Source: Desulfovibrio sp.
Lineage (GTDB): Bacteria > Desulfobacterota > Desulfovibrionia > Desulfovibrionales > Desulfovibrionaceae
Assembly: GCA_031279825.1 (NCBI GenBank)
Contig: JAITHT010000091.1
Location: forward strand, 1-34,032
DNA: 34,032 bases
Direction of reading: 5' to 3'
Part shown: one piece after another, positions 1,861 through 32,093 of the stretch
How the letters are laid out: every line of letters starts with the position of its first letter
How positions within the stretch are numbered: position 1 is the stretch's first letter
Notes under the pieces: generated by a model
Database searches by the model: none
What the model saw: the letters and a program-made list of their open reading frames with translations, nothing else
What the model was told of the DNA's origin: nothing
Translations under genes and position numbers: made by a program

Positions 1861-1864
1861 CGGA

Positions 1865-3030
1865 TTATGCCGTCTTTTCGCGCAATTCGTCCAAAAAGTC
1901 GGCGTATGCCTGCATCATGCTCCGGCGTTCCTTGAGATATTCCGCGCGATTGTAGGCAAGGCGCACGGCATCCGGTTCCTTGTGGGCCAGTTGGGCTTCA
2001 ATCACGTCCGCCCGGAAGCCGAGTTCATTCAGATTGGTGCTGGCCGTGGCCCGGAAGCCGTGCAGACACATCTGGTTCTGGGCATAACCCAGACGGCGCA
2101 AAGCGGCCAGCGGGGCGGCATCGCTGATGGGCGTGGTTTGGGTGCGGATGCTCGGAAAGAGATATTGCCCGTTGCCGGAGAATTTTTGCAGCGCCCGCAG
2201 TAATGCCGTCACCTGCCGGGCCAGAGGAACGGAATGCTCCTGACGCATTTTCATACGCTCCTTTGGTATGCGCCAGAGTTCCTTGTCAAAGTCAAATTCC
2301 GCCCATTCCGCCCGCCGCAGTTCCGTAGGCCGCGTAAAGACATAGGGCAGGATTTTCATAAAATAGATTACGGAAAAATGGCCTTCACAGGCGTCAATGT
2401 CCCGGAGCAACGCGCCCACGGCTTTGGGGTCGGTCAGCGCGGCAAGGCTGGTGTTTCGCACGGGCTGGAGCGCTTCGGTCAAGCCGGAGGCCACATCATG
2501 ACCTGCCCGCAAAGCTGCATGAGCTTGTGGGCCGTTTCCAGATGCCCTTTGGCCTCGGTGGGGCGCACCGCCGCCAAAAGGTCGGCGGGTTCAATCAGGG
2601 TCACGGGCTTGTCGCCGATGGCCGGAAAAAGCGTGTATTGCAGAAAGCGCTTGAGCTTGGCGGCGTGTTTGGGGGTGAGTCTGGGCGAATAGACAACGAA
2701 CCATTCCAGAGCGACAAAGGCGAAATTTTCCTGTTCTTCCTTCTCTTTGGCGGCTTGAGCCGCTTTGCGCTCCTTTTTTTCCTCGCCGGGGTCAATGTCC
2801 TTGGCAAGCAATTCCTTGGCTTCGTCACGCCGGGCGCGGGCATCTTTCAGGGAGACGGCGGGGTATGCGCCGAAACTCAGAAGTTTCTGCTTGCCGTTAA
2901 AGCGGTAGGCCATCCTCCAGAGTTTTCCGCCTGTAGGGGCGCAATGCAGGTAGAGGCCGCCGCCGTCCGAGAGTTTTTGCACCTTGCCGGAGGCTTTCAG
3001 GTTGCGGATATGCGTGTCGGTCAGGTTCAT
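1865..3030 (-). pseudogene. P4-type tyrosine recombinase (integrase), broken
   Basis: The gene starts at an ATG at 3030 (MNLTDTHIRNLK) with a GGAGAGGAGG upstream. The first part has the DUF4102 arm-binding domain (LSDGGGLYLHCAPTGGKLWR, LLSFGAYPAVSLKDAR) and the core-binding region. The frame is lost after LMQLCGQVM at about 2485 and resumes in another frame at ASGLTEALQP. The intact paralogue at 21010 has 13 residues (QFAHLTGKTRYNP) in this gap, 39 nt against 5 nt here, so about 34 bases have been deleted. The catalytic half is otherwise complete, with Arg in TRPTELR, HGFRA, AHKEPDAV and the AYNRAEY tyrosine. Element A probably can no longer mobilise itself unless an integrase is supplied in trans, for example by the related element B. 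Confidence 0.9.
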
Positions 3031-3050
3031 AACGGCCTCCTCTCCGGTAT

Positions 3051-3154
3051 GTTGGTATGTCCTCAGCGGTTTGAGTCTCAAATCATCCCACTACGATTAT
3101 TTCAATGAAAAACAGTATATTGTCGAATGTTGGTATAAAAATCGGCGTTGGTAT
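3051..3154. repeat. GTTGGTAT direct repeats and palindrome upstream of the broken integrase
   Basis: GTTGGTAT occurs at 3051-3058, 3129-3136 and 3147-3154, all in the same orientation. A perfect odd palindrome, TTTGAG-T-CTCAAA, lies at 3070-3082. They sit between the integrase start and the core chromosome, where an attachment site with arm-type integrase sites would be expected. The repeats are seen directly; the att role is inferred, and no tRNA 3' end was recognised here. Confidence 0.35.
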
Positions 3155-20595: not shown

Positions 20596-20682
20596 GCCGA
20601 AGTGGTGGAATTGGTAGACACGCCAGGTTCAGGGTCTGGTTCTCGCAAGGGAGTGGGAGTTCGAGTCTCCCCTTCGGCACCA
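20596..20682 (+). tRNA. tRNA-Leu (anticodon CAG)
   Basis: An 87-base class II tRNA with encoded CCA. The acceptor stem is GCCGAAG/CTTCGGC. The D arm contains AATTGGTAGAC. The anticodon stem is CCAGG/TCTGG around the loop TTCAGGG, giving anticodon CAG. A long variable arm (TTCTCGCAAGGGAG region) is typical of leucine tRNAs, and the T arm contains GTTCGAGTC. Its 3' end is the integration target of element B and is duplicated imperfectly at 31932-31951. Confidence 0.97.
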
Positions 20683-20683
20683 T
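20663..20683 (+). other. attL (3' end of tRNA-Leu)
   Basis: The T-arm to CCA segment of the tRNA, followed by AT. It is repeated at 31932-31951 with a single-base deletion. Use of the tRNA 3' end as attB, with the integrase gene adjacent and reading away from it, is standard for this integrase family. Confidence 0.85.
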
Positions 20684-20706
20684 TTTTAAGTTCACCACAG
20701 TTCAAG

Positions 20707-20745
20707 AAAGTCCGCAAAGCTTAGAGCCAAGCGGACTTTTCTTTT
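20707..20745 (+). terminator. intrinsic terminator downstream of tRNA-Leu
   Basis: AAAGTCCGC (20707-20715) and GCGGACTTT (20731-20739) form a perfect 9-bp stem with a 15-base loop, followed by TCTTTT. It lies inside the element and would end the tRNA transcript, replacing the original terminator now displaced to the far side of the element. Confidence 0.75.
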
Positions 20746-20796
20746 GCCATACGTTCAAGCAAGTTCACGAAGGTACGTTGACATGCGCTATTTTTG

Positions 20797-21008
20797 GGGG
20801 TAACTATTGGGGTAACAGGGCGAGAGGCGGGGGGGTAAATGCCGTTTTGATACCCCCAGCATGAAACCATTGCCGGACAAGGTTTTTCTCAAAAATCCTC
20901 TTGTCCGGCCCGACACCCGAAAAAAGTTACCCCCAGCGGAACGGCTTGTCCCTACTGGCGAAAGCCGAATCTGGGCGAAGACTCCCCTCAAACGGAAGGA
21001 GTTACCCC
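20797..21008. repeat. GGGGTAAC / GTTACCCC cluster (putative integrase arm sites, left)
   Basis: GGGGTAAC occurs at 20797-20804 and 20809-20816, 12 bases apart. Inverted copies GTTACCCC lie at 20926-20933 and 21001-21008, the last abutting the integrase start. Weaker matches lie at 20832-20839 and 20851-20857. The same 12-base-spaced pair recurs at the other end of the element (31856-31875). P4-type integrases carry an arm-binding N-terminal domain, so these are good candidates for its sites. Confidence 0.6.
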
Positions 21009-21009
21009 C

Positions 21010-22245
21010 GTGGCCTTGTCTGATACATCCATCCGCAATGCCAAGGCACAAGCCAAGCCCCTCAAGCTCTTTGACGGCGGCGGGCTGTTCCTGCTTGTTA
21101 CCCCCGCTGGCGGCAAGTGGTGGCGGCTCAAGTATCGCTTCGGGGGCAAGGAAAAACTTCTTTCCCTGGGAGTATATCCAGACGTGGGCCTGAAAGATGC
21201 CCGCCGCCGCCGCGATGAGGCCAGGGGGCTGCTTGCCGATGGTATCGACCCTGGCGAACAGCGCAAGGAAGTCAAGGCTGCGGCGGTGGCTGAACAGAAG
21301 GAAAGAGAAAGCACCTTTGAGGCCGTGGCGCGTGAGTGGTACGCCTCCTATGCGCCCTCCCTGACGCCGAAGCATTCAGCCAAGCTCATGCGCTATCTGG
21401 AAACAATCCTGTTCCCGGCCTTTGGGGGTAAGTCTGTTGCCACCCTGGAGCCGTCCGTTTTTGTGGACGCCATCAGGCCCACGGAAGCGAAAGGCCATAT
21501 CACCACGGCCCACAAGCTCATGCAGCTTTGCTCTCAGGTAATGCAGTTCGCACACCTCACCGGCAAAACCCGGTACAATCCCGCTACCGGACTGAGCAAG
21601 GCCTTGCAGCCGCTACGCCATCAGAATCTTGCCGCCGTCACTGATCCCGCCGCCATCGGTCTGCTACTCAGGGACATTGACGCGTATGAGGGCTTTCCTT
21701 CCATCGTGTCCTACCTGAAAATTCTTCCCTACGTTTTTACCCGGCCTTCGGAGCTTCGCCTTGCCGAGTGGCAGGAGTTCAAAATTGATGAAGCCATGTG
21801 GCGTATCCCGGCAAAGCGGATGAAGATGCGGCGGGAGCATACCGTTCCCCTGTCGCGTCAGGTGTTGGCCCTGCTGGAAGAGTTGCGGGCGTTCTCCGGA
21901 TCGGGTCGGTATCTGTTCCCCAGCGCCAAGACAAAAGCGGCCACCATATCCGACGCTGGCCCGCTGGCCGCACTCCGGCGTATGGGCTACCAGAGTCACG
22001 AAATGACGCCGCACGGATTCCGGGCCATGGCGTCAACCCGTCTGAATGAGCTTGGCTTTCGCGCGGACGTGATCGAGGCGCAGCTTGCCCACCGGGAACC
22101 GGATGCCGTCCGCCTGGCATACAACCGGGCTGAATACACCGATGAGCGCCGGAAGCTCACATGCAGTCATGGGCCGATTATCTGGACGAATTACGCGCCG
22201 GCCAAAGTCCCTCACAGCGGTGAGGGCGCACTTACCGGTTTCTAA
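21010..22245 (+). CDS. P4-type tyrosine recombinase (integrase) of element B
   Basis: Mediates site-specific integration and excision at tRNA-Leu. The 411-residue protein has the DUF4102 arm-binding domain (FDGGGLFLLVTPAGGKWWRL, LLSLGVYPDVGLKDARRRRD), a core-binding region and the catalytic domain, with Arg in TRPSELRLAEW, HGFRAMAST, AHREPDAV and the nucleophile Tyr in AYNRAEY. It starts at a GTG at 21010 with GGAAGGAG upstream. After ERRKL the frame is shifted by two extra bases near 22159: the conserved tail MQSWADYLDELRAGQ is readable in another frame and would stop at 22222, whereas the actual frame ends in an unrelated tail. The catalytic residues are unaffected, so the protein may still work. 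Confidence 0.93.
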   Translation: MALSDTSIRNAKAQAKPLKLFDGGGLFLLVTPAGGKWWRLKYRFGGKEKLLSLGVYPDVGLKDARRRRDEARGLLADGIDPGEQRKEVKAAAVAEQKERESTFEAVAREWYASYAPSLTPKHSAKLMRYLETILFPAFGGKSVATLEPSVFVDAIRPTEAKGHITTAHKLMQLCSQVMQFAHLTGKTRYNPATGLSKALQPLRHQNLAAVTDPAAIGLLLRDIDAYEGFPSIVSYLKILPYVFTRPSELRLAEWQEFKIDEAMWRIPAKRMKMRREHTVPLSRQVLALLEELRAFSGSGRYLFPSAKTKAATISDAGPLAALRRMGYQSHEMTPHGFRAMASTRLNELGFRADVIEAQLAHREPDAVRLAYNRAEYTDERRKLTCSHGPIIWTNYAPAKVPHSGEGALTGF

Positions 22246-22262
22246 AGAAACCTGTGCGCTCT
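22209..22262. promoter_or_regulatory. paired hairpins after the integrase
   Basis: CCCTCAC-AGCG-GTGAGGG (22209-22226) is a perfect hairpin. It is followed by GGGCGCAC...GTGCGCTC enclosing GGTTTCT-AAA-AGAAACC (22225-22261), which share the GGG arm and so cannot both form fully. There is no T-run. The structure occupies the same place as the nested inverted repeat of element A. It may be a terminator or a regulatory switch; the rest of the 22246-22517 gap has no gene. Confidence 0.4.
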
Positions 22263-22517
22263 GCGAGGCATTGAGCGGGGAAGAGACAACGGCTGGCGGT
22301 ATGGGAAAATGGCGGGCGTGTCTGCCGCTGGTTTTTGCGAAAGGCAAAAGCATAGCACAGTATACTTCACTCGCGTGAAGGCTGTGCGACCGTCCCGCTC
22401 GACCGGGAGAGAAAACCAAATTTCCCCGGATAGGTGCGGCCTCATGAACCGCACTGAAAAGCCGTACCTGAACGGCCTGCCGGGGGAAGCATTCAGGTAG
22501 CTCCATCAGGAGGGGTT

Positions 22518-23309
22518 ATGTTTGATGATTGGATCGCTATGGGGCTATTATCCCAAGCGTATAATTTGAATGCGATCGAGTGCATCGAATTAGCACAGCG
22601 GGTGCCCTGCAAGTTCGGCGCAACAAGTCACAATCGGGCATACGACCTGAAAAAGATCGACCATCATGCGAAAGAGTATGCCCGGAAACTGATGGGTAAT
22701 TCTGACCAAAGCGCTACTTACTCAATATATCACCTTGCCATGAATCAGTGGCGTGGTGAAACGCATGAACAAGCCAAGGCCACCTGGGACGCGGGATATA
22801 AATTCCTATGGGATCGTAAAGTCGTGAAGGAGGCCTTCGGCGCTCTGTGGCCGGTCACACGTCTTTTTTTCATCACTGACTTGAGCGTGGATAAGAAGCA
22901 AGCCGTCCTCCTTCTCGCAGAAGCTGGCTACCCTTTGCAAAAAGAGGTCAAAGGGCTAACGAAAACTGTTGTTGATGGTATTTTAGCTTCTGCCAACCCT
23001 GCCAGTGCCCCGCAGCCCCAACCCCTTACCAATTCCGCCGCTACCCCGAAAAAGCGACACGGGGCTATTTCGGCCAACGACGCAGCTAAGGTGCTAAAAG
23101 TATCTGAAAGAACCGTGCGAAATTGGGATACCGGAAATAATATGCCGGAGGGATACCCCGGCAGAAACGATTTGACAGCTTTTCACTTGTTCGCGAACCA
23201 GTACCTTCAAAAGAAGCGCCTCGCAGAACAGGCGCGGGCAATGAATCGGGCAAGCTCAGGCTTGGGAGGGCTTGAAGAATTCGGCGATTATGACGATCGG
23301 GCTTTATAA
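22518..23309 (+). CDS. unknown element protein with C-terminal helix-turn-helix
   Basis: A 263-residue protein with GGAGGGG upstream of the start. I know no named family for it. Residues 9-20 (GLLSQAYNLNAI) and 122-150 (LSVDKKQAV, then GYPLQKEVKGLTK) match the element A protein at 627-1643. A Pro/Ala-rich linker (about 158-180) leads to a helix-turn-helix at about 184-205 (ANDAAKVLKVSERTVRNWD), so it probably binds DNA through its C-terminus. It lies between the integrase and AlpA, where satellites and islands usually keep regulators. It could be a repressor, a replication initiator or an excision accessory protein. Confidence 0.75.
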   Translation: MFDDWIAMGLLSQAYNLNAIECIELAQRVPCKFGATSHNRAYDLKKIDHHAKEYARKLMGNSDQSATYSIYHLAMNQWRGETHEQAKATWDAGYKFLWDRKVVKEAFGALWPVTRLFFITDLSVDKKQAVLLLAEAGYPLQKEVKGLTKTVVDGILASANPASAPQPQPLTNSAATPKKRHGAISANDAAKVLKVSERTVRNWDTGNNMPEGYPGRNDLTAFHLFANQYLQKKRLAEQARAMNRASSGLGGLEEFGDYDDRAL

Positions 23310-23407
23310 GACAAAAGACAGCCCTCTTCCCCATTAAAACATGAAGCAAATTGATCAAAACATGAAATTCTAAAATCTTTTCTAAAAATATTATGCCGTT
23401 CTATATC

Positions 23408-23437
23408 AACCCCTTGCGCTTGCGTGAGGGGTTTTTT
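23408..23437 (+). terminator. intrinsic terminator upstream of AlpA
   Basis: AACCCCTTGCGCTTGCGTGAGGGGTT folds into a stem of AACCCCT with AGGGGTT plus an inner GCG/GCG contact and is followed by TTTT. It separates the unknown regulator gene from the AlpA gene. In element A a terminator-like hairpin stands in the same position. Confidence 0.75.
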
Positions 23438-23524
23438 CACGTTTTAAAACCGCTCAAGATCTGCAATTCCGGCCTCTTTTTGAAAGCTGTCCGTTCCGGT
23501 TCAGCTAAGGTCAAAGGAGGTTTT

Positions 23525-23749
23525 ATGTCACAGGAAGCGATTTCTTTTCCCACCATAGGCTTTCTCCGTCTGCCTCAATTCATCGGGCGGGGCAAACCCA
23601 TCCCTATTTGCCGCACAGCCTGGCTCGAAGGCGTGAAGTCGGGCATCTACCCGCAGCCAGTTCGGCTTGGGCCGAGGACAGTTGCATGGAGAGTCGAAGA
23701 TATCAGGCGGCTCATTGACGAATTGAGCGCGCAGAACGCCGGGCAATAG
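23525..23749 (+). CDS. AlpA-family phage regulatory protein (element B)
   Basis: A 74-residue AlpA-type DNA-binding protein. It starts at the ATG at 23525 with AAAGGAGG upstream; an in-frame start at 23393 would read through the terminator and is rejected. GFLRLPQFIG, CRTAWLEGVKSGIYPQPVRL and RTVAWRVEDIRRLI give the helix-turn-helix and wing pattern shared with the element A copy. In P4-like satellites AlpA proteins promote excision and late expression. The replication gene follows after nine bases. Confidence 0.9.
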   Translation: MSQEAISFPTIGFLRLPQFIGRGKPIPICRTAWLEGVKSGIYPQPVRLGPRTVAWRVEDIRRLIDELSAQNAGQ

Positions 23750-23758
23750 GCGGATGCC

Positions 23759-24838
23759 ATGAATACCGACATCCGTCTTGCCATCGGCTTTTTCGACCAT
23801 CCAAAAACCATAAAACTTGAGCGTCAGCTTGGGCTACAGGGTGTCGTAGCTCTCATGCGCCTTTGGCTGTGGGCGGCACAGAACAGGCCAGACGGCGTTC
23901 TATCCGAAATGGACGTTGACGACATTGAAATTGCCGCCCGGTGGAACGGCGAACAACGAGCGTTGTACGACGTACTTACGAAACTGCGCTTCGTAGATAC
24001 CGTAGACGGCGAACCCCACCTTCATGACTGGAAAGACCACAACGAATGGCAGTCACAAGCCGGGCAACGCTCCGATTCGAATCGGCTAACCCGTTTGGCA
24101 CGGGCTTGCCCTGATTCCTATAAAGCCTTGGTAGATGCGGGAATCAAGGGGATTTCCCGCGAAATATACGAAGTAGTTACCACGTCCAACGACCGTAATA
24201 CGACCGTACAACGATTGCTTACGAACGGTACTACCCCTTTCCTTACCTCTCCCTGCCTTTCCTCTCCCTCCCCAACCTTACCTGAAGAAAGAGAGACTTC
24301 ACTACGTTCAGTCTCCTTGTCCGGGCCTGGCGGCCCTGACGTGCAGAGCGAGATTACCCCGGAAGACGTTCCGGATGCCTCTCCGGAGAAAAAACAGGCA
24401 AAGAAAAAGCCTGAGCCATTGCCGGAAGATTCGGAGCCGTACAGGCTCGCTCTCTTCATGCAGGATACCTTGAAAGCCAACGTCCCTACACTCAAAGAGC
24501 CCGACCTGCAAAAGTGGGCGCGAGAGTTCGACGTAGCCCTTCGGAATGACAGCCGCATGTCTGAAGCCCGCTTTGTTGCGCAGGTCATCAAGTGGGCCTG
24601 TTCAGACATCTTTTGGCGGACAAACATTCAGAGCCCCGGCAAGCTCCGGGAAAAATTCGACCAGTTGACCGCGAAAATGGAAGCGGAGGCGGCAAAGGCT
24701 CGCACTTCACCGCAACAAGCGGAGTGGAAGTCTCCGGCGCAGCGGCGGCTTGAAGCGAACCAACAGGCCGGGAGGGATGCGAAACGCCTTCTCTTCGGGA
24801 ACCAGGCCGCTCAGGAGGTGACCCATGAAGCCGGATGA
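23759..24838 (+). CDS. phage replication protein (replisome-organiser-like N-terminus)
   Basis: A 359-residue protein. Residues 1-100 (IRLAIGFFDHPKTIKLERQL, ALMRLWLWAAQNRPDG, DDIEIAARW, LRFVDTVDGEPHLHDWKDHN) have the winged-helix pattern of phage replisome organisers and DnaD-like initiators, which bind the origin and help load helicase. The middle (about 160-225) is low-complexity, rich in Ser, Pro, Glu and Lys, and probably flexible; the nucleotide sequence there has runs of CCT. The C-terminal part is helical. It overlaps the next gene by 14 bases, and the two together look like an initiator/helicase-loader pair. The origin was not identified; it may lie within this gene, as in lambda-type O genes. 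Confidence 0.7.
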   Translation: MNTDIRLAIGFFDHPKTIKLERQLGLQGVVALMRLWLWAAQNRPDGVLSEMDVDDIEIAARWNGEQRALYDVLTKLRFVDTVDGEPHLHDWKDHNEWQSQAGQRSDSNRLTRLARACPDSYKALVDAGIKGISREIYEVVTTSNDRNTTVQRLLTNGTTPFLTSPCLSSPSPTLPEERETSLRSVSLSGPGGPDVQSEITPEDVPDASPEKKQAKKKPEPLPEDSEPYRLALFMQDTLKANVPTLKEPDLQKWAREFDVALRNDSRMSEARFVAQVIKWACSDIFWRTNIQSPGKLREKFDQLTAKMEAEAAKARTSPQQAEWKSPAQRRLEANQQAGRDAKRLLFGNQAAQEVTHEAG

Positions 24839-25502
24839 TTTCGACCGCTTCGACTCGTTGATTCAGGGAGTGGCAGACTGCTACGGTCAGACGATTACGG
24901 CTCAAGGCATCGCCTTGCGGTTCAAGATGCTGGCACAGTTTGATTACCCTGAAGTGGAACAGGCCGCGCTCTCCATCATGGCGAGCCGCAAATATACCTC
25001 CATGCCGACCCCGGCGGACTTTTTCGAGCACTTGGGCGGCGGAAGCGCCGAAGACAAGGCAGAGGTGGAAGCGGGCAAGGTCTTGCAGGCCATCGGAAGA
25101 CATGGCGGCTACAACAGCGTTGTCTTTGACGATCCCACGACTCAGGCAGTCATCGTACAGGCCTATGGCGGCTGGGCGCAGATGTGTGCGGAGTGTGGCG
25201 TTGAAGAGTCGGAAAAATGGTTCCGTGTCAACTTCGCAAAGACCTGGGCCGCATACAAGCGCCAGGGCGTTCAGGTGTTCGGGGTACTGGCCGGGATATT
25301 TGAAATCCAGAACAGTGCCAACGGCTTTCTTGAACATATCCCCCAGCCGAAATTGGTAGGCAATCCAGAAAAAGCTCAGGCCGTGCTTGAAGCCGGGCGG
25401 CAGATGGTTCTTGAGGCCTCTCCGCAAAACGCCCTGCTGGCTGGACAAGGCCTTTCGGAAGGAACCGGGCCCCGGGAAGCCGAAACGCTCCGGCGTCCAT
25501 AA
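24825..25502 (+). CDS. replication accessory protein (helicase-loader-like)
   Basis: A 225-residue protein starting at an ATG with AGGAGGTG five bases upstream, inside the end of the previous gene. Its first ~80 residues (DRFDSLIQGVADCYGQ, ALRFKMLAQFDYPEVEQAAL, MPTPADFFEHLGG) resemble the helical domain of phage proteins acting like lambda P or DnaB loaders. The centre has conserved Trp and Cys (WAQMCAECGVEESEKWFRV, FAKTWAAYKRQ). No ATP-binding motif is visible, so it would be a P-type rather than DnaC-type loader. The assignment rests on position after an initiator-like gene and on general pattern. Confidence 0.6.
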   Translation: MKPDDFDRFDSLIQGVADCYGQTITAQGIALRFKMLAQFDYPEVEQAALSIMASRKYTSMPTPADFFEHLGGGSAEDKAEVEAGKVLQAIGRHGGYNSVVFDDPTTQAVIVQAYGGWAQMCAECGVEESEKWFRVNFAKTWAAYKRQGVQVFGVLAGIFEIQNSANGFLEHIPQPKLVGNPEKAQAVLEAGRQMVLEASPQNALLAGQGLSEGTGPREAETLRRP

Positions 25503-25533
25503 GCGAAATTTTGAGCATTGCGGGGGTGACACA

Positions 25534-26319
25534 ATGAGTACGGCTGTAACTATTTTCCAGAATCCTTCTTTCGGTAGTCTCCGTGCATTCACTGATCACG
25601 ATGGGGAACCCCTGTTCGTCGCGCGGGATATTGCCGAGGCGCTGGGGTATTCCGAATCCAGTAATCCGGCCCGGCTGCTCGCACACGTTCCGGAGGAGTG
25701 GAAGGGGGTGAAACGGATTCACACCCCTGGAGGCGAACAGGAAGCGCTTTGTCTCATGGAACAAGGCTTGTACTTTTTCTTGGGCCGCTCCGACAAGCCC
25801 GCAGCGCTCCCGTTCCAAAAATGGCTTGCCGGGGATGTACTTCCTTCCATCCGCCGCCACGGCATGTATGCCACTCCGCAGACCGTGGAAGCCATTCTTG
25901 CCGACCCTGATACCGCTATCACCCTTTTGCAAAACCTGAAGCAGGAACGGAGCCGCCGTACCGCTCTGGAAGCGCAAGCGTCCATTGACCGGCCCAAGGT
26001 AGTCTTTGCTGATGCCGTTGACGCCTCTCATACGTCTATCCTGCTGGGCGACTTTGCCAAGATTCTGCATCAGAACGGCGTCAGCATCGGTCAGCGGAGG
26101 CTTTTCGAGTGGATGAGGGAACGCGGCTACCTGATGAAGTACGGCGACAGCCGTAACATGCCAACACAGCGCAGCATGGAAATGAAGCTCTTTGAAATCA
26201 AGGAGCGCACCATAAACAACCCGGACGGCTCCATACGCATCACGAAAACGCCCAAGCTCACCGGCAAGGGACAAATCTACTTTGTGAACCTGTTCAAGCG
26301 TGATGGATATGCGGCGTAA
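25534..26319 (+). CDS. phage antirepressor (Bro-N plus KilAC-type domains)
   Basis: A 261-residue protein with an N-terminal Bro-N domain: IFQNPSFGSLRAFTDHDGEP, FVARDIAEALGYS, then CLMEQGLYFFLGRSDKPAAL and FQKWLAGDVLPSIRRHGMY. The C-terminal ~110 residues (LGDFAKILHQNGVSIGQRRL, FEWMRERGYL, TGKGQIYFVNLF) match the KilAC/ANT DNA-binding domain. Such proteins counter phage repressors or control lytic genes. In a satellite it could respond to a helper phage. I start it at the ATG at 25534 after GGGGGTG; the frame is open to 25387 without homology. Its stop overlaps the next start (TAATG). Confidence 0.9.
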   Translation: MSTAVTIFQNPSFGSLRAFTDHDGEPLFVARDIAEALGYSESSNPARLLAHVPEEWKGVKRIHTPGGEQEALCLMEQGLYFFLGRSDKPAALPFQKWLAGDVLPSIRRHGMYATPQTVEAILADPDTAITLLQNLKQERSRRTALEAQASIDRPKVVFADAVDASHTSILLGDFAKILHQNGVSIGQRRLFEWMRERGYLMKYGDSRNMPTQRSMEMKLFEIKERTINNPDGSIRITKTPKLTGKGQIYFVNLFKRDGYAA

Positions 26320-26732
26320 TGCCGGTTTTATCGAGGCCGCTCAACCGGCCCTGTACTGTGGCAGAGTTCCGCAAGAAGCAAAGAGCCGTGGCCGACCTTG
26401 CCAGCAAACGCCCAAAGGGAAAGAAGCGGCGGCGTCCACAGATGCCAGACTATGAGATATTGCAGATATTGGCCCTACAGCAAGAAGGAGAATGCGACAT
26501 GAGAGCATTGGAACAGCGCATAGTCAGAGTCACTGCGGAAGTGCCCGTGCGGCCCTTCAAAGAACCCTTGGCGGGCGAAACCTACAGCAAGGTTCACGTC
26601 TGCATGGAAGGCAAGCGCGCGGACGGCAAGCCCTGTCTGCTCGATCTCGATATGAACGAATTCATCCCGCCGCGCGACGATTCGACCATTGTTGTGCTCC
26701 GGCTGAAGCCCAAGGCACAGGGAAGCGCATGA
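26319..26732 (+). CDS. unknown protein upstream of terminase
   Basis: A 137-residue protein with no family that I recognise. The N-terminal half is very basic (RKKQRAVADLASKRPKGKKR), while the C-terminal half (YSKVHVCMEGKRADGKPCLL, then RDDSTIVVLRLKPKA) looks like a small beta-rich domain. The first ATG at 26319 overlaps the antirepressor stop. An internal ATG at 26499 has a much stronger ribosome binding site (AAGGAG, 8-base spacing) and would give the C-terminal 77 residues alone, so two products are possible. Its stop overlaps the small terminase start (ATGA). Confidence 0.65.
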   Translation: MPVLSRPLNRPCTVAEFRKKQRAVADLASKRPKGKKRRRPQMPDYEILQILALQQEGECDMRALEQRIVRVTAEVPVRPFKEPLAGETYSKVHVCMEGKRADGKPCLLDLDMNEFIPPRDDSTIVVLRLKPKAQGSA

Positions 26733-27160
26733 AAGGGCTTACCGTCAGGCAACGGCGCTTTGTGGAGGCGTATGCAGGCAACGCCACGGAAGCGGCTGTA
26801 AAGGCCGGTTACAGCGAAAAGACGGCACGATCTCAGGGGCAACGCCTGTTGACAAATGCTGATATTCAGGCGGCCATTCAGGGCCGGACGGAAAAGAACA
26901 TGAAAGCCACCATTGCCGATCGGCAAGAGCGGCAGGAATTCTGGACTGCGATCATGCGCGATGAAGAAGCCGACATACGCGATCGGACCCGCGCGAGCGA
27001 GTTGCTGGGCAAAAGCGAGGGGGATTTTCTCGAACGGGTGGATCACTCCAATACCGACGGCAGCCTTGCCCCTGTTGTGGCTATCGACCTTTCGCACCTG
27101 GGGGCGGATGAAATTATTGCCCTGACCCGCGCGGCTTTTGAGGGGGAAGAATCATGCTGA
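26729..27160 (+). CDS. terminase small subunit
   Basis: A 143-residue protein of the Terminase_2/XtmA family, which recognises the pac or cos site and recruits the large subunit. The N-terminal helix-turn-helix region reads LTVRQRRFVEAYAGNATEAA, then AGYSEKTARSQGQRLLTN. A central helical part for oligomerisation follows (RTRASELLGKSEGDFLERVD), and a C-terminal tail (EEIIALTR-type) would contact the large subunit. I start it at the ATG at 26729, overlapping the previous stop; an in-frame start at 26492 lies inside the upstream gene and gives nonsense. It overlaps the large subunit gene by seven bases. Confidence 0.92.
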   Translation: MKGLTVRQRRFVEAYAGNATEAAVKAGYSEKTARSQGQRLLTNADIQAAIQGRTEKNMKATIADRQERQEFWTAIMRDEEADIRDRTRASELLGKSEGDFLERVDHSNTDGSLAPVVAIDLSHLGADEIIALTRAAFEGEESC

Positions 27161-28662
27161 CAGCCATGCTGGAATTGATGCGGGATAATCCTTCCGCGCT
27201 CGCGGGCGCAATGCGCGTCGCGCTCGCGCGTGTCGGCCTGTGCGCGTTCGTGCGCCATACCTGCCGCGGCTATGAAATGGGCTGGGTGCACGAGGAAATT
27301 TGCAAAGAGCTTGACGCATTCTTGGCTGCTGTGCAGCGCAAGGAATCGCCGCGCCTCATGATCACCATGCCGCCGCGCCACGGCAAGAGCGAACTCGCAA
27401 CTCGGCGTTTCCCGGCCTATGCCTTCGGGCGCAACCCCGATCTGACCATTATCAGCACAAGCTATGGCGCCGACCTTTCCAGTCGCATGAATCGGGACGT
27501 ACAGCGCATCATGGATGGCAAGGAGTACCTGGAGCTTTTCCCCGATGTCACCCTTTCCGGCAAAAACATTCGTACCGTTGCCAGCGGTAACTACCTTCGC
27601 AATTCGGATATATTTGAGATTGTGGGGCACGAAGGCAGCTATCGCAGCGCGGGCGTTGGTGGGGGCATCACCGGCATGGGCGGGGACATCCTGATCATTG
27701 ACGACCCCCTGAAGGACCGCGCCGAAGCCGACAGCCCCACCATCCGCGAAAAGGTATGGGACTGGTACACGTCCACTCTGTATACCCGTCTTGCCCCTGG
27801 CGGCGGTATCCTGCTCATTCAGACGCGCTGGCACATGGACGATCTGGCCGGGCGGCTTCTGGAAGCGGAACGTATGGGGGAAGGCGACGCATGGCGTTGT
27901 GTGAACTTTCCCGCCATCGCTACGGACGATGAACCCCATAGGCGCATGGGGGAGGCCCTGCACCCCGAACGCTATCCCCTGGAACAGTTGATCACCATCA
28001 AGACCGCGCTTGGCTCCCGTGATTGGGAAGCGTTGTATCAGCAACGCCCGGTGCCGGACGGTGGGGCGGTGTTCCGTAAGGAGTGGCTGCGCTACTGGCT
28101 GCCCAAGGATTTGCCGGAGAAGTTCGACAAACTTTTGATATCCTGGGACATGGCTTTCAAAGACAGTGAAGACTCTGACTATGTTGTTGGTCAGGTGTGG
28201 GGCAAGCACGGCGGGAGCTTTTATCTGGTTGATCAGGTGCGCGGGCGCATGGGTTTTACCGCCACTGTTCAGGCCTTTCGCGATCTGGCGGACAAGTGGC
28301 CGCAGGCCGTGGAAAAGCTGGTGGAAGACAAAGCCAACGGCCCAGCGGTGATCGACAGTTTGAAAACCAAGGTGCACGGCATCATCCCGATCGAGCCGGA
28401 CGGAACGAAAACGGCCCGCGCACATGCCGTGACGCCGCTATTCGAGGCTGGGAACGTCTATATCCCGCACCCGCAGGCGCGCGCGTGGGCGAGCGACTAC
28501 GAAGCCGAGTTGCTCCAGTTCCCCGCCGCCGCACATGATGATCAGGTTGACGCGACAACACAGGCGCTCCGGAGATTCACCGTCAGGCCGCCCATGCAGA
28601 TCAATCCTGATATCCTGAAAAACATGCGGTGGAATGGATCGCGAACAACCTTTGTTCTGTGA
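27154..28662 (+). CDS. terminase large subunit
   Basis: A 502-residue packaging motor (Terminase_6 type) that cuts concatemeric DNA and pumps it into proheads. The ATPase half has Walker A MPPRHGKSELATRRFP, an ISTSYGADLSSRMNRD segment and Walker B DILIIDDPLKD with IQTRWHMDDLAGRL as coupling motif. The RNase H-like nuclease half has the acidic residues in ISWDMAFKDSEDSDYVVGQV, VEDKANGPAVID and AAHDDQVDATTQAL. All key residues look intact and the length is full. No portal gene follows, although portal normally comes next in phages; the element instead switches to a tiny gene and then to the opposite strand. Confidence 0.95.
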   Translation: MLTAMLELMRDNPSALAGAMRVALARVGLCAFVRHTCRGYEMGWVHEEICKELDAFLAAVQRKESPRLMITMPPRHGKSELATRRFPAYAFGRNPDLTIISTSYGADLSSRMNRDVQRIMDGKEYLELFPDVTLSGKNIRTVASGNYLRNSDIFEIVGHEGSYRSAGVGGGITGMGGDILIIDDPLKDRAEADSPTIREKVWDWYTSTLYTRLAPGGGILLIQTRWHMDDLAGRLLEAERMGEGDAWRCVNFPAIATDDEPHRRMGEALHPERYPLEQLITIKTALGSRDWEALYQQRPVPDGGAVFRKEWLRYWLPKDLPEKFDKLLISWDMAFKDSEDSDYVVGQVWGKHGGSFYLVDQVRGRMGFTATVQAFRDLADKWPQAVEKLVEDKANGPAVIDSLKTKVHGIIPIEPDGTKTARAHAVTPLFEAGNVYIPHPQARAWASDYEAELLQFPAAAHDDQVDATTQALRRFTVRPPMQINPDILKNMRWNGSRTTFVL

Positions 28663-28716
28663 CACTCTGAACTCGCCTGAGACCAGGCGAAATACACACC
28701 AAAGGAGGTGGTAGAC

Positions 28717-28833
28717 ATGCGGCACTACGCGCGAGGAATGGGAACTATAGGACGTGCCGGCGCGATGGGTTCCAGAGGTCGGGCGATCCTTCGTTCCGTG
28801 CGGTCTGGCAGAGGCGGCACCAGTGGTTCTTAA
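28717..28833 (+). CDS. 38-residue Gly/Arg-rich basic peptide
   Basis: A short open frame with a strong ribosome binding site (AAAGGAGGTG, 6 bases before the ATG at 28717). The product starts MRHYARGMGTIGRAGAMGSR and ends RSGRGGTSGS: eight Arg, ten or more Gly, no acidic residue. It ends four bases before the convergent gene's stop. It sits where phages usually have portal or head genes. It may bind nucleic acid, or be a small regulator of packaging. I cannot name a family. Confidence 0.6.
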   Translation: MRHYARGMGTIGRAGAMGSRGRAILRSVRSGRGGTSGS

Positions 28834-29243
28834 TCTTTAACCAAGGCGCTCAGGCGCTTATTCTCCTTGGCGGTTGGGCGGTATGCCATGCTCGAAGCGG
28901 GCAGGTTTATCCCCAGCCGCCTAGCCATATCAAGGCCGTCAAGGTATTTGTCCCCTTCGTGGTAAATGTTGATGGCCTTCAAAAAGGCCTCTTTCTGCTC
29001 TCGTGTCTCAAAGCACAGGGCGCACCAATATTCGCTGTCCGTGGTCAGGCGCATGTGCTCCCGCAGGGCTTTTTTGCGCTCTTTGTTCTGCAATGCTTCC
29101 AGGGACAGGGCTATCTCTTGTCGAGAGTCCTTTTCCGGGTTGCCGGTGTACTCCAGAGAGTCGAGCGGGCTGGGGGGCATGTCCAGATCATCATCCAGGG
29201 GCTTTTTCTTTCTTCCCCTGCCGGGTTTACGAACAAAGGCCAT
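28830..29243 (-). CDS. unknown protein, partner of the PAPS-reductase-like gene
   Basis: A 137-residue protein read right to left. I choose the ATG at 29243 (MAFVRKPGRGRKKKPLDDDL) because GGAGGT lies nine bases upstream; the longer frame to 29435 would lie inside the next gene. The N-terminus is a basic Gly/Arg/Lys patch followed by an acidic one. The centre is helical and charged (EIALSLEALQNKERKKALRE). A EYWCALCFETREQKEAFLKA segment has a Cys-x-x-Cys that could bind metal. The protein overlaps the end of the PAPS-reductase-like gene by 17 bases, so the two are translationally linked and probably work together. I recognise no family. Confidence 0.75.
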   Translation of the reverse strand: MAFVRKPGRGRKKKPLDDDLDMPPSPLDSLEYTGNPEKDSRQEIALSLEALQNKERKKALREHMRLTTDSEYWCALCFETREQKEAFLKAINIYHEGDKYLDGLDMARRLGINLPASSMAYRPTAKENKRLSALVKD

Positions 29244-29946
29244 AGCGTTCATACCTCCATATTTCCAAGTCGGCCAGCGGGAACCATTCGAGTATGCGCT
29301 CATAGTCCCGTGGGTAGTGCTTTTTGATGTTGTACAAGTATAGCAGGTAAATGCCGTCGAACGTGCGTCCGAACAGGTTGTAATCAACCGGGAGCTTGAT
29401 GCGGTTGTGCTCCAACTCCTCATATACCCGGTCAATTTTCCAGTCCCATACGGGGTAGAACACCCGCCGCTTATCGTTTACAACGCCATGTGTCCGCAGC
29501 GCTGTGCGCCGCTGTACGCTGTCCGCAGAGCGAAGCCCCACGGCGCACCAGCATTTTTCGGGCAGTTCCCGGCTTGCTTCACAGGCGCGGTGCACGTCAT
29601 CCCAAGTGAACCGAGGCAAATTGAGGTTCAAAATTGTGGGCCAGCGGTCAGGAGGTTGATACACGCAGTCATTCAGCATCTCATAGAAACGCGGGTTGGG
29701 CAGGCGGGTTATGCGTGTGCCGAGTATGCCCTCAGCATAGGTCAGGTAATCCTCTACGAACTCCAGATCAGGCACGAGGTAGTAATAAAACGGCGTGATC
29801 TTGGCCGGATCGAAATGCTCTCGAATGCCGAGCCAGGCCGCCCATGCGTCTTTGCCCCCGCTGAACGACAAAAGTATATGGCCGTCGGGGGTGCGCTCCT
29901 GCACATACCTGATGATGTCAGCATGGGGCATGGTTTTGTCGATCAC
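29227..29946 (-). CDS. PAPS-reductase-like ATP pyrophosphatase (phage type)
   Basis: A member of the adenine nucleotide alpha-hydrolase/PAPS reductase family. The PP-loop SFSGGKDAWAAW near the N-terminus binds the ATP pyrophosphate. Further family-like parts are DLEFVEDYLTYAE, CWCAVGLRSADSVQRR and FYPVWDWKIDRVYEELE, with the paired C-terminal tail WRYERYG. I favour a GTG at 29946 (GGAGGT upstream), giving 239 residues and no overlap with the XRE gene; the longest frame begins at 30033. Relatives include sulfate-assimilation enzymes, tRNA thiolases and the phosphorothioation protein DndC. Phage-borne forms have no settled function. Nucleotide or DNA/tRNA modification, possibly for defence or counter-defence, is the best guess. 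Confidence 0.85.
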   Translation of the reverse strand: MIDKTMPHADIIRYVQERTPDGHILLSFSGGKDAWAAWLGIREHFDPAKITPFYYYLVPDLEFVEDYLTYAEGILGTRITRLPNPRFYEMLNDCVYQPPDRWPTILNLNLPRFTWDDVHRACEASRELPEKCWCAVGLRSADSVQRRTALRTHGVVNDKRRVFYPVWDWKIDRVYEELEHNRIKLPVDYNLFGRTFDGIYLLYLYNIKKHYPRDYERILEWFPLADLEIWRYERYGLCS

Positions 29947-29986
29947 ATGCACCTCCACAGTAGTAAATTTCGCATAGAAACAGCCC

Positions 29987-30223
29987 CTACGCCTCGTTTT
30001 TGTCTTTGCCGGAGGAGGGTTCATATTCGCCATCGAAAAGAGCCTTTACCGGCACGTCAAGGGCATGCGCGATGCGCCCCAAGGTAGAAAGGCGGCATTC
30101 GGAGATATCAACGTCAGAACGAGCCTTATGTAGCGTCGCGCTCGAAAGGCCAGATACCGCAACGATATCCCGAATAGTCACATCCTTGTCTTTCATTATC
30201 TCTTTGATTTTACTTGTAAACAT
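29987..30223 (-). CDS. XRE-family helix-turn-helix regulator
   Basis: A 78-residue repressor-like protein with one XRE/Cro helix-turn-helix: TIRDIVAVSGLSSATLHKAR forms the helix pair and RIAHALDVPVKALFDGEY the closing helices. It is first in the minus-strand set with the PAPS-reductase-like gene and its partner, and divergent from two small plus-strand genes. It probably represses from the intervening 166-base region, where CGTGAG and CTCACG half-sites flank a TTGACC box. It may be the master repressor of the element, with the antirepressor gene as its antagonist. Confidence 0.88.
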   Translation of the reverse strand: MFTSKIKEIMKDKDVTIRDIVAVSGLSSATLHKARSDVDISECRLSTLGRIAHALDVPVKALFDGEYEPSSGKDKNEA

Positions 30224-30251
30224 AACAAACGCTCTATTCTTGTTTTAGTAA

Positions 30252-30283
30252 CGTGAGTTTTTACTTGACCTCTTTGCCTCACG
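30252..30283. promoter_or_regulatory. candidate operator/promoter in the divergent region
   Basis: CGTGAG (30252-30257) and CTCACG (30278-30283) form a 6-bp inverted repeat separated by 20 bases, with TTGACC (30265-30270) between them as a possible -35 box for the plus-strand genes. The region lies between the XRE start (30223) and the small gene at 30390. Only the inverted repeat is certain. Confidence 0.4.
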
Positions 30284-30389
30284 ATATTAAAACAGAGTCG
30301 TTGAAAGCGCAATACACAAGAAACAGCCCCGGCGGGTACAGCGAATACCGCGCCAGGGCCTGACCAGACAGCACACAGGAGGTGCTACC

Positions 30390-30614
30390 ATGGCTACACA
30401 AAACTTATCGGCTCAGGCAGCGGAAGGCAATACCCCCGAACCCAAATACTGCACCCGCTACGGCGTCATGACGGCCAGCGACGCGGCGCTTGATCTGCTC
30501 GACCGGGCGCGCTTCCGAGCGGCGTTCATCGGTACGATGCTCAAGGCCTGCGGAAAAGACGGCTACGACGTCACGCCCGGCAAGATATCCGACATGCCGG
30601 AGGTGAAGTCATGA
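30390..30614 (+). CDS. small unknown element protein
   Basis: A 74-residue protein with a strong AGGAGGT upstream of the start at 30390. The sequence has a charged N-terminus followed by a helical YGVMTASDAALDLLDRARFR segment and FIGTMLKACGKDGYDV. No family is recognised. It is first in a two-gene set divergent from the XRE regulator, with its stop overlapping the next start (ATGA), so it is probably controlled by that regulator. Confidence 0.7.
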   Translation: MATQNLSAQAAEGNTPEPKYCTRYGVMTASDAALDLLDRARFRAAFIGTMLKACGKDGYDVTPGKISDMPEVKS

Positions 30615-30856
30615 GCAAAACCGCCGCAAAAGCCACACAGCAGGCTCAGAGCCTGGTTCACCTCACGCAAGAGATAGAGCACTTGCGCTGGACAGTTGAT
30701 AGCTTAACCAGGAGAAACGAAATACTTGAAACCCTGAACGCCTCATACGAAGAAAGACTTAGCCTGCACCGCCAGTTGGGCCACATCAGCAGCGCTCCAA
30801 AAGACGCCGAACCACCCCCCGCATGGGCGAACAGTATCGAAGGACCGATCCAATGA
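30611..30856 (+). CDS. small coiled-coil protein
   Basis: An 81-residue protein that is largely one amphipathic coiled coil (HLTQEIEHLRWTVDSLTRRN, EILETLNASYEERLSLHRQL) with a Pro-rich acidic tail (KDAEPPPAWANSIEGPIQ). It is translationally coupled to the preceding small gene by a four-base overlap. No family is recognised. A dimeric regulatory or capsid-interaction role could be imagined, but nothing in the sequence shows it. Confidence 0.65.
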   Translation: MSKTAAKATQQAQSLVHLTQEIEHLRWTVDSLTRRNEILETLNASYEERLSLHRQLGHISSAPKDAEPPPAWANSIEGPIQ

Positions 30857-30917
30857 ACGAGGCGGCTGATACTCTGAACCCTTGACGCCACAACAGCCTG
30901 ATAAAACCTGCCCCCCG

Positions 30918-30950
30918 GCCCTGCTTCCTTCATGGAGGCGGGGCTTTCTC
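30918..30950 (+). terminator. intrinsic terminator after the small gene pair
   Basis: GCCCTGCTTCC (30918-30928) pairs over 11 positions (two or three G-T) with GGAGGCGGGGC (30934-30944) around the loop TTCAT, followed by TTTCTCATTTT. It ends the small-gene transcript before the toxin-antitoxin pair. Confidence 0.8.
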
Positions 30951-30984
30951 ATTTTCCGGCAGGATGACTGCGAAGGCGGAATGC

Positions 30985-31000
30985 AGACTCGAACTCCCAC
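30985..31000 (-). other. tRNA-Leu T-arm fragment inside the element (inverted)
   Basis: On the minus strand GTGGGAGTTCGAGTCT is identical over 16 bases to bases 20653-20668 of tRNA-Leu(CAG). Past the match a degraded resemblance continues (CCTTCGCA near 30970). The rest of the tRNA is absent. It looks like the relic of an older attachment site or of a captured tRNA end. The 30857-31184 gap otherwise holds only the terminator. Confidence 0.5.
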
Positions 31001-31184
31001 AATTTTGCGATATTCGGACACGAACTTTTGCGTGTCTGTGTTCGGCTGTGTTCCGGCTGCTCTCTTCGGGGTTCCAAGGGGCTTGCCCCTGGCCAGCGCC
31101 CGGCAGTGGGTGTGCCCACAACGGGTAGGCTGGCTCTCTTCGGTGGCGCCGGGCAGGGTCACGAATAATGCCACAGATACCCCA

Positions 31185-31222
31185 TTGACATTTAGCTTAT
31201 GATTGCTTATAAAAACTTATGA
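31185..31222 (+). promoter_or_regulatory. consensus-like promoter with repeated operator motif for the TA pair
   Basis: TTGACA (31185-31190), a 17-base spacer and TATAAA (31208-31213) form a near-perfect sigma70 promoter. The expected start of transcription is at about 31220, on the toxin ATG itself, so the transcript would be leaderless or nearly so. CTTATGA-like repeats occur at about 31195, 31206 and 31216, overlapping the -10 box, and fit autoregulation by the antitoxin. Confidence 0.7.
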
Positions 31223-31473
31223 ACAGCATCGAGTGGACAACCAAGGCATTACGGCAAGCACGGAAGCTCCCGCCAACTGTTCAGGGAGACATTGCCGAGG
31301 CGGTTGATACCCTCCGCAGTTGGCCGCATGTTGAGCAGATCAAGGCGCTGGTGGGGAAACCCGGCTACCGGTTGCGTGTAGGCCGTTATCGAGTGCTGTT
31401 CACAATTCATGCCGGTATCCCGCTGGTGGTTCGCATAGAGGAGGTCAAGAAGCGCGATGAGCATACCTACTAA
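31219..31473 (+). CDS. RelE/ParE-family toxin
   Basis: An 84-residue toxin of the RelE/ParE superfamily, which usually cleaves mRNA at the ribosome or poisons gyrase. The pattern is typical: SIEWTTKALRQARKLP, a helical AEAVDTLRSWP, then KALVGKPGYRLRVGRYRVLF and a closing VRIEEVKKRDEHTY strand. The YRLRVGRYRVLF core with VKKRDE suggests the RelE/YafQ-like mRNA-interferase subgroup. There is no Shine-Dalgarno and the promoter suggests a leaderless message. It is upstream of and overlaps the antitoxin gene by 17 bases, the toxin-first order of HigBA-type pairs. It may stabilise the element after integration. Confidence 0.9.
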   Translation: MNSIEWTTKALRQARKLPPTVQGDIAEAVDTLRSWPHVEQIKALVGKPGYRLRVGRYRVLFTIHAGIPLVVRIEEVKKRDEHTY

Positions 31474-31804
31474 TCATCAAGTTATCACGCACCAGGGCGT
31501 ACCTGTGGCTGTTGTGGTGCCCTATGAGGAGTACGCCGCCGCTTTTGGCCGTGACGCAGTGCAGGAAGCCACAGATCCCACCGTTCCGCATGAGGTTGCG
31601 TCCCGTGTTCTGAAAGAGCAGATATCCCCCATCCGCGCATGGCGTGAGTACCTGGGATTGACTCAGGCTGATGTGGCCGCCCGCATGGAGGTATCACAGT
31701 CCGCCTTTGCCCAGATGGAAGCCCCTGAAGCCAGGCCGCGCATGAACACCTTGAAAAAGGTAGCCGCCGCCCTGGGGGTTGCTCCTGACCAGTTGAGGTG
31801 GTAA
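31457..31804 (+). CDS. antitoxin: Phd-like N-terminus fused to XRE helix-turn-helix
   Basis: A 115-residue antitoxin of the preceding toxin. The N-terminus (HQVITHQGVPVAVVVPYEEY) resembles the Phd/YefM dimerisation fold, and the C-terminal half is a standard XRE helix-turn-helix (REYLGLTQADVAARMEVSQS, then MNTLKKVAAALGVAPDQLRW). The middle would wrap the toxin. Combining a Phd-type segment with an XRE domain is less usual than either alone. It probably represses the operon through the CTTATGA-like repeats. Start at 31457, inside the toxin gene, with GAGGTCAAG upstream. Confidence 0.88.
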   Translation: MSIPTNHQVITHQGVPVAVVVPYEEYAAAFGRDAVQEATDPTVPHEVASRVLKEQISPIRAWREYLGLTQADVAARMEVSQSAFAQMEAPEARPRMNTLKKVAAALGVAPDQLRW

Positions 31805-31855
31805 TCCTGCACGGAGGAAGAGACACCCCCGGCCATGATGCACCGAAAGCGTGTG

Positions 31856-31875
31856 GGGGTAACTTTCGGGGTAAC
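31856..31875. repeat. GGGGTAAC pair (putative integrase arm sites, right)
   Basis: GGGGTAAC at 31856-31863 and 31868-31875, again 12 bases apart and in the same orientation as the left-end pair at 20797-20816. This shared spacing at both ends of the element supports a role in integrase binding. Confidence 0.6.
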
Positions 31876-31931
31876 TATAAAAATATGCACCATGGCATAC
31901 GTTTAATTTCAATATGATAGCATGACCTGAA

Positions 31932-31951
31932 GAGTCTCCCCTTCGCACCAT
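31932..31951 (+). other. attR of element B (duplicated tRNA-Leu end)
   Basis: GAGTCTCCCCTTCGCACCAT matches the 3' end of tRNA-Leu (GAGTCTCCCCTTCGGCACCAT) except for one missing G. It marks the right end of element B. The adjacent sequence is a terminator and then the integrase of another element, so the same att could also be the left end of that element. Confidence 0.8.
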
Positions 31952-31999: not shown

Positions 32000-32038
32000 C
32001 TCTCTCCAAGGGTTCAGCCGTGGCTGAAAATCCCTGAT

Positions 32039-32068
32039 GGGTCCAAAGGGGTCCAAACAGGGGTCCAA
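32039..32068. repeat. GGGTCCAA triple direct repeat
   Basis: GGGTCCAA at 32039-32046, 32049-32056 and 32061-32068, spaced 10 and 12 bases. It lies between attR and the start of the next integrase, the usual place for arm-type integrase sites of that element. Confidence 0.5.
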
Positions 32069-32093
32069 CCTGCCCTCCGGCACGGGGTTCGCC

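Follow-up and report, generated by a model that had tools for sequence, protein, structure and literature searches.

The window analysed here, the entire 34,032-nt contig C23 (JAITHT010000091.1) of the Desulfovibrio sp. metagenome-assembled genome (MAG) GCA_031279825.1 (2.23 Mb, 94 contigs, ~83% complete), contains an 11.3-kb island that sits in a tRNA-Leu gene and combines a predicted origin of transfer (oriT) of the MOBV type with a complete pair of phage terminase subunits, TerS and TerL. Our leading, though tentative, interpretation of this sequence is that the island is a relaxase-less integrative mobilizable element (IME) of the iOriT class of Desulfovibrionaceae, which gained a packaging module from a phage and could be mobile by either of two helper routes. 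A published account (PMC11389934), in its accessible part, treats phage satellites and conjugation-dependent islands as distinct helper-dependent classes. The present island bears signatures of both, namely an oriT with a mobilizable backbone and a complete terminase, and in sister islands of the family the same slot is filled by relaxases from three families. It is a concrete example of the way in which module exchange may turn mobilizable elements into satellites, and its analysis yielded a structural model of the MOBV-type oriT for Desulfovibrionaceae, usable to find other relaxase-less islands.

The island is bounded by two attachment (att) sites derived from the tRNA gene. ARAGORN placed a tRNA-Leu(cag) at 20596-20682 (+), and its 3′ end, GAGTCTCCCCTTCGGCACCAT, forms the left att site at 20663-20683. 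The right att site at 31932-31951 (+), found by repeat and fuzzy searches, repeats this 3′ end with one G missing; no third copy was reported on either strand of the window at up to 4 edits. An element in the same tRNA-Leu of another genome, G190, ends on its right side in an identical one-base-shorter variant, which argues that both ends of the island are real. Two inverted tRNA-Leu copies (30985-31037 and 32137-32156) were discarded as att candidates, since their orientation does not suit excision and the direct repeat at 31932-31951 is the stronger one. A first-pass annotation of this DNA had described tRNA-Leu att sites around integrase, AlpA-like, replication, antirepressor, TerS and TerL genes, and this content was borne out by ARAGORN, the repeat search, Pfam and PHROGs, with AlpA weak. 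The orphan oriT, a second integrase at 32037-33920 and the end of the contig in a multi-copy repeat are features that it did not mention.

Its description of the island as capsid-less also stands. Every scanned gene is open, and Pfam and PHROGs scans of the 16 open reading frames (ORFs) of the element at E≤0.001 gave no match to head (terminase excepted), tail or lysis families, while a portal profile made from relatives matched nothing in the window at E≤10. A relaxed rescan at E≤1, covering six ORFs of the element, returned, for the protein termed B, profiles of tail assembly (0.003) and TerS (0.018) and, for the small protein N, a spanin profile (0.27); the matches of B go through an apparent helix-turn-helix (HTH), and these weak matches of B and N were taken as chance. 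No relaxase or type IV secretion family appeared among the ORFs of the element, and MOBV, NikA/Relaxase, MobA/MobL and three Trb probes found no match in the window at E≤1e-4.

The orphan oriT lies at 22338-22406 on the minus strand, 93 bp after the tyrosine integrase gene (21010-22245, +; Arm-DNA-bind_3 and Phage_integrase; 75% identical to its counterpart in the G190 element, which occupies the same tRNA-Leu), in an element that has no MOBV gene. When the non-coding stretch after the integrase was searched alone, it was found in 34 of 285 family genomes, at 45 listed places. At the 24 places analysed, three of which (G211, G246 and G155) look near-identical, a MobV match adjoins the segment in 17 cases and a TraK-like gene lies on its other side in 16; five have an integrase without a MobV match, and two, on short contigs, have neither. 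A covariance model built from 14 mobV-side (relaxase-side) copies, with the window left out, scored the window site at 72.2 bits (E 6.7e-21, the E-values of the tool being rough), compared to 8.7 bits for the next best site in the window. Similarly, an nhmmer profile of 13 copies, which uses sequence only, gave 50.6 bits for the window and at best 11.0 bits for 100 block-shuffled windows. The nick is predicted on the minus strand between 22356 and 22355 (CTGTG/CTATG).

In the mobV-side copies the segment forms a hairpin of 6+7 bp whose right arm bears a 3-nt bulge; 99.4% of the cells are paired in it, compared to 31-40% when the structure is slid (13 distinct copies). The outer stem reads GCACAG/CTGTGC in the window and in a copy at 2.63 Mb of G008, and GCCCAC/GTGGGC in the relaxase-side copies; the outer stem has therefore been kept through paired changes. 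Orphan copies in the window, in G008 (2.63 Mb) and in G173 (contig C102) lie 26-106 bp after an integrase gene in the same relative orientation, though G173:C102 is a 4.5-kb contig, so that a relaxase may lie outside it. Two further copies are placed differently, one near an integrase in the other orientation (G202) and one ~0.9 kb from an integrase (G049). By sequence and predicted structure, the segment 22338-22406 is a putative MOBV-type oriT, at which relaxase recognition and nicking are predicted.

This layout resembles the characterized MOBV origins. According to the parts of the sources consulted, the pMV158 oriT has a 12-bp stem, a 4-nt loop and a 3-nt bulge in the right arm, with the nick at the 3′ end of the arm in TAGTGTG/TTA (PMC5863519, PMC5090054). 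The window copy shares with the oriT of pMV158 and IMESag-rpsI, as described there, the long hairpin, the loop of ~4 nt, the right-arm bulge and, as predicted, the position of the nick at the 3′ end of the arm. The nick motifs, TAGTGTG/TTA and TAGTGCG/TTA in pMV158 and IMESag-rpsI as given in the same passages, TAGTGGG/CTA as the family consensus and TACTGTG/CTA in the window, are similar, not identical. Unlike the oriT of pMV158 and IMESag-rpsI, the window copy is GC-rich, belongs to Desulfovibrionaceae, has a predicted nick and follows an integrase gene rather than lying beside a relaxase gene.

The left arm of the island, which carries the order integrase-oriT-B-AlpA-DnaD-DUF6475, is common to mobilizable islands of the family. 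Of 288 family genomes, 25 contain matches to a DUF6475 profile, at 29 places in all, and 19 of these places were analysed: the window, nine other loci with the backbone and nine distant ones. Integrase, AlpA-like or DnaD-like neighbours occur at 10 of the 19 (window included) and are absent at the nine distant loci, which were compared with the window proteins and with this TerL and portal family alone. In six of the nine other backbone loci a relaxase gene follows DUF6475 within 0.7 kb, and these relaxases belong to three unrelated families. MOBV (Mob_Pre) relaxases follow in G243 (Pfam) and G264 (by similarity), and a partial Mob_Pre match (Pfam) lies in an interrupted gene at 1.75 Mb of G008; a MobA/MobL relaxase follows in G026 (Pfam); and NikA plus Relaxase follow in G173:C13 (by similarity) and G052:C84 (Pfam, read in L138, with a 100% identical relaxase). 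The remaining three loci continue with an antirepressor and small genes (G008, 2.63 Mb), with an HTH protein, a second integrase, an LPD38 giant protein and a SIR2 protein (G190), or stop with the contig within an antirepressor gene (G052:C41). The oriT survey found two further MobV loci with window-like genes: G026:C23, with integrase (75%), AlpA (49%) and B (52% over a short stretch), and G019:C5, with D, the DnaD-like protein (59%), and AlpA (44%). These relaxase-bearing loci indicate that the backbone is common to integrative mobilizable elements, most of which have a relaxase where the window has antirepressor, TerS and TerL. As read from these sequences, the position behind the replication genes can be filled by relaxases of three different families or, in the window, by a packaging motor.

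These comparisons bear on two points raised earlier. The combination of integrase, AlpA and replication genes, which the first-pass annotation had taken as the mark of a satellite, does not hold as such, since the same genes occur in relaxase-bearing mobilizable elements of the family. It had also named related genomes with the same arms around a full set of head and tail genes as the observation that would overturn its view; no such arrangement was found in the nine other backbone loci, where stretches of 3.3-20 kb were checked for this one TerL and portal family and contain neither. In a separate comparison, DNA-level matches of the window elsewhere consisted mostly of integrase and toxin-antitoxin sequences, and the places named here were taken further. 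The toxin-antitoxin pair was considered as a shared prophage right arm and rejected, as all five fetched loci share the 0.6-kb pair alone. Two candidate features of the G008 element gave nothing: its right att site, sought via similarity to its tRNA-His, was not found, and DUF5681 as a stand-in for TerS had no match in its support. The G190 element (L126, G190:C15), which shares both the tRNA-Leu site and the backbone, encodes a 1377-aa LPD38 protein, a 570-aa protein without a family match, a resolvase and a SIR2-like protein.

In the slot after the replication genes and antirepressor, the window carries TerS (26729-27160, +; 143 aa; Terminase_2, phrog_51) and TerL (27154-28662, +; 502 aa; Terminase_6N/6C, phrog_38). 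Four residues of TerL, K78, which we take to be the Walker A lysine, D183 and D184, presumably of Walker B, and D463, which we place in the C-terminal domain, are the same in all 27 sequences of the alignment. The earlier statement that all catalytic residues are intact holds for these four; the other nuclease residues lay outside the column-by-column comparison. L297 is the sister of the window sequence in the TerL tree (support 0.91), within a clade that includes sequences of G150, G180 and G173 (0.98), and the terminal branch of the window sequence is short (0.098 vs 0.155-0.312 in the neighbours). In pairwise comparisons with four phage TerLs, dN/dS ranges from 0.08 to 0.11, dS being close to saturation. 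By these measures TerL is under purifying selection rather than in decay, though a recent capture would look alike. TerL is 76-84% identical to those of the phage terminase regions G150:C46, G180:C72, G173:C1, L028 and L297, and a portal gene follows TerL in the first four, whereas the window element has none. The relatives in G150 and G180, two other genomes of the same genus, are 81-82% identical and lie next to the portal gene. L297 holds a matching pair (TerS 63%, TerL 84%), and no portal matched in the 0.96 kb of its contig that remain after TerL. Capture of TerS from a different phage than TerL was considered; this is weakened by L297, which carries both. A closer TerS (67%) lies in L133 beside another TerL family.

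We propose that the two modules would act as follows. The integrase and the AlpA-like factor would excise the element from the tRNA-Leu gene, and D and E (the DUF6475 protein) would replicate the excised circle. The MOBV relaxase and type IV channel of a co-resident element could then nick the oriT and mobilize the element in trans; upon induction of a phage with a compatible portal (phrog_146 family), the element's own TerS-TerL could package the element into the heads of that phage. The element would thus have two exits, both helper-dependent, by conjugation, by packaging or by both. The terminase probably serves transfer, with passive carriage not much less likely. That the element exploits both routes, with the MOBV oriT for conjugative mobilization in trans and TerS-TerL for self-packaging in helper heads, and that the terminase has replaced the relaxase, is a more specific proposal, which we consider possible but hold with less confidence than the general one.

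Several observations weigh against this interpretation, and our confidence is limited by a single instance, an unfinished genome and transfer deduced from sequence. The architecture of backbone plus terminase was seen once, packaging is a predicted step, and no pac or cos site was identified in the element. Regarding the oriT, two-sided changes occur at two pairs among the mobV-side copies, a level that 32 of 500 shuffles also reach, so that covariation alone lends modest support to the hairpin; the inner stem of the window copy has one C-U mismatch, which turns the bulge into 4 nt opposite one unpaired base; and the one exact oriT pattern tried against IMG/VR viral contigs gave 0 matches. DUF6475 and DnaD-like genes occur in phages too. 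In the viral contig L039, a distant DUF6475 relative (23%) lies 8.4 kb upstream of a 60% identical TerL with a portal, showing that phages do combine these gene types. With six duplicate loci and that of the window left aside, the close relatives of TerL (phmmer E<1e-120) number 30 distinct loci, and a portal match (phrog_146-like profile) was found near 22 of them. Among the eight without one, five have <1.5 kb downstream, and the others are L032, which has tail baseplate genes by reading, L047 and L049. In a wider set of 75 TerL loci with ≥1.5 kb downstream, which takes in distant TerLs with other portal families, duplicates and the window, the corresponding count by a narrower rule is 18. 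As close TerL relatives normally lie near a portal, the pair came from a phage or is the leftover of one.

In the MAG itself, the sole phrog_146 portal match is a fragment beside an insertion sequence (DDE transposase) on the 3.4-kb contig C72 (L220), where it is followed by a Phage_Mu_F/DUF6883 fusion. Judging from its genes, C72 is the remnant of a prophage with a matching portal type; as a missing part of the island it was rejected, since it shows no overlap with the end of the window. No other Terminase_6N gene was found in the MAG, this being the terminase family searched. Mob_Pre was unmatched in the MAG, with the control silent as well and the genome 83% complete. Contig C56 carries at 32.5-38.9 kb (L209) a TrbE/VirB-type gene and a piece of a T2SSE-type ATPase near an oriT copy, and its mobV, beside that copy, consists of a C-terminal fragment alone. 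From this gene content the C56 region is possibly a resident conjugative element, and the MAG may possibly harbour a helper for the conjugation or the packaging route.

A somewhat less probable reading, which we take seriously, is that the island is an oriT-bearing IME with a passenger, in which TerS-TerL and the adjacent genes K and J are recombined phage DNA that does not serve its transfer, or serves against phages alone. The backbone and oriT are those of IMEs, the terminase architecture is unique among the loci compared, and other copies of the backbone hold varied cargo, including the SIR2-like and LPD38 genes of G190 and CBASS-like genes, recognized by eye, in G026. The TerL data speak against idle carriage, as they show an intact gene on a short branch with purifying selection acting on it, although a gene captured recently would leave the same picture. 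In addition, TerS and TerL move together, as the matching pair in L297 indicates, and no head-gene debris was found beside them.

It is still less probable that a tRNA-Leu prophage has collapsed here, with the head, tail and lysis genes lost from the stretch between TerL, or K-J, and the right arm. In favour of this are the portal linkage of the close TerL relatives, the occurrence of DnaD-like, DUF6475 and Ant genes in phages, and L039, which joins a DUF6475-like gene with TerL and portal. The K-J genes also fit a phage source. J (28830-29252, −; 140 aa) adjoins K, a PAPS-reductase-like gene (29227-30033, −; phrog_2302, phrog_424; 79% in L133; a weak SspD match at E 1e-6; no match in Pfam), and such a pair adjoins the terminase genes of Pasteurella phage Pm86 and Cutibacterium phage CA1NRNZ, phages of unrelated hosts. 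Moreover, in the phages L031 and L117 TerL and portal are ~0.9 and 2 kb apart, and K-J together with the regulator gene L could be such an insert. Against a collapse, the left arm and the MOBV-type oriT are common to relaxase-bearing elements, every gene scanned has an open frame, and att sites mark both ends of the element. None of the nine other backbone loci, drawn from a survey of 19 of the 29 DUF6475 places in draft genomes that can hide prophages, contains the TerL or portal family in question. Likewise, none of the 80 TerL loci kept from viral contigs has both arms. Finally, the phage contig L133 already has TerS-TerL facing convergent J-K as in the window, with no portal after TerL and a tape-measure-like gene upstream of TerS. 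The insert that parts TerL from portal in L117 and L031 includes a reverse-strand gene of ~250 aa, secreted-nuclease-like by eye.

A pure phage satellite of a new kind, in which the oriT is vestigial and packaging alone matters, is very improbable: the size of 11.3 kb, the tRNA att sites, the series integrase-AlpA-replication-antirepressor-TerS-TerL with structural genes unmatched, and the possible helper-type phages in the genus (G150, G180) agree with it, but the paired changes that kept the outer oriT stem in the window and G008 copies suggest use, and viral-contig scans found no packaged relative of the backbone, with one 42% DUF6475 match and 0 oriT matches. The candidate satellite of the first-pass annotation survives in part: both terminase subunits are intact, TerL is under constraint and portal-linked relatives exist, whereas the backbone is of the mobilizable-island type with a MOBV-type oriT. 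As a family marker in viral contigs, B gave no confirmed relatives.

The island can be compared with known satellites and with iOriT elements. Phage-inducible chromosomal islands (PICIs) encode an integrase, an AlpA-type regulator, replication genes and TerS, and no structural genes. The island resembles them in each of these points but differs in having TerL, an oriT and an IME-shared backbone, and a capsid-redirecting gene was not recognized in it. The PICI gene order comprises integrase, AlpA/Stl-type regulators and primase/replication genes; the island has the integrase and an AlpA-like gene, but its replication genes are DnaD-like and DUF6475, which are common to relaxase-bearing elements. 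P4 has a P4-type primase/helicase, Sid/Psu capsid genes and a cos site recognized by the helper terminase. Unlike P4-like satellites, the island has its own terminase, and those families were unmatched in its 16 ORFs at E≤0.001. Capsid-forming PICIs, as far as the portion of the source available goes, encode capsid, protease, portal, connectors, TerS/TerL and HNH (PMC10690885). The island likewise encodes both TerS and TerL; in contrast, genes for a major capsid protein, protease, portal, connector or HNH protein were not found in it. In the accessible sections of PMC11389934, iOriT names the class of integrative mobilizable elements with an oriT alone. The island resembles iOriT elements in its integrase, its tRNA att sites, a predicted oriT without its own relaxase, the lack of transfer-channel genes and a backbone common to relaxase-bearing elements of the same bacterial family, and differs in carrying a complete phage TerS-TerL pair with the phage PAPS-like and J genes. 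In the mainly open-access literature, as far as its texts could be consulted, we found no described element with an oriT and its own TerL but without capsid genes. The nearest published cases in those texts are transduction-selected plasmids and plasmid-SaPI hybrids (PMC8494744) and, in a strain that also carries a PICI, a plasmid bearing an oriT mimic (PMC8407400).

The other genes of the island are arranged around these modules. B (22518-23309, +; 263 aa) has no assigned function, a weak HTH at about residues 183-211 and short matches to proteins adjoining AlpA and integrase genes. The AlpA-like regulator (23525-23749, +; 74 aa) matches Pfam Phage_AlpA weakly (19.8 bits vs a cut-off of 21, E 7e-4). 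D (23759-24838, +; phrog_2514, phrog_4880) is a DnaD-like replisome organiser or helicase loader, and E (24825-25502, +; Pfam and PHROGs) is a DUF6475 protein that is probably replication-associated. A BRO-N/ANT antirepressor (25534-26319, +; Pfam and PHROGs; 83% identity in the G008 element) and G (26319-26732, +; 137 aa; no family match) precede TerS. Beyond K-J lie the Cro/C1-type HTH regulator L (29987-30223, −; HTH_26), M and N (30390-30856, +; 74 and 81 aa; no PHROG match at E≤0.001), and a RelE/ParE-type toxin with an HTH antitoxin (31219-31804, +; Pfam and PHROGs), which also occurs as a stand-alone block elsewhere.

Both edges of the contig carry further integration genes. The right end is a multi-copy repeat that recurs at five other places in the MAG. 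A second tyrosine integrase gene (DUF6538; 32037-33920, +) starts 86 bp past the right att site, with the contig ending 112 bp beyond it in that repeat, and its position suggests tandem elements at this tRNA-Leu. At the left edge, the stretch 295-3081 (−) forms a second island end of the same kind, with an AlpA above the Pfam Phage_AlpA cut-off, a B-like protein of 338 aa and an integrase whose coding sequence is divided between two overlapping ORFs that differ in frame.

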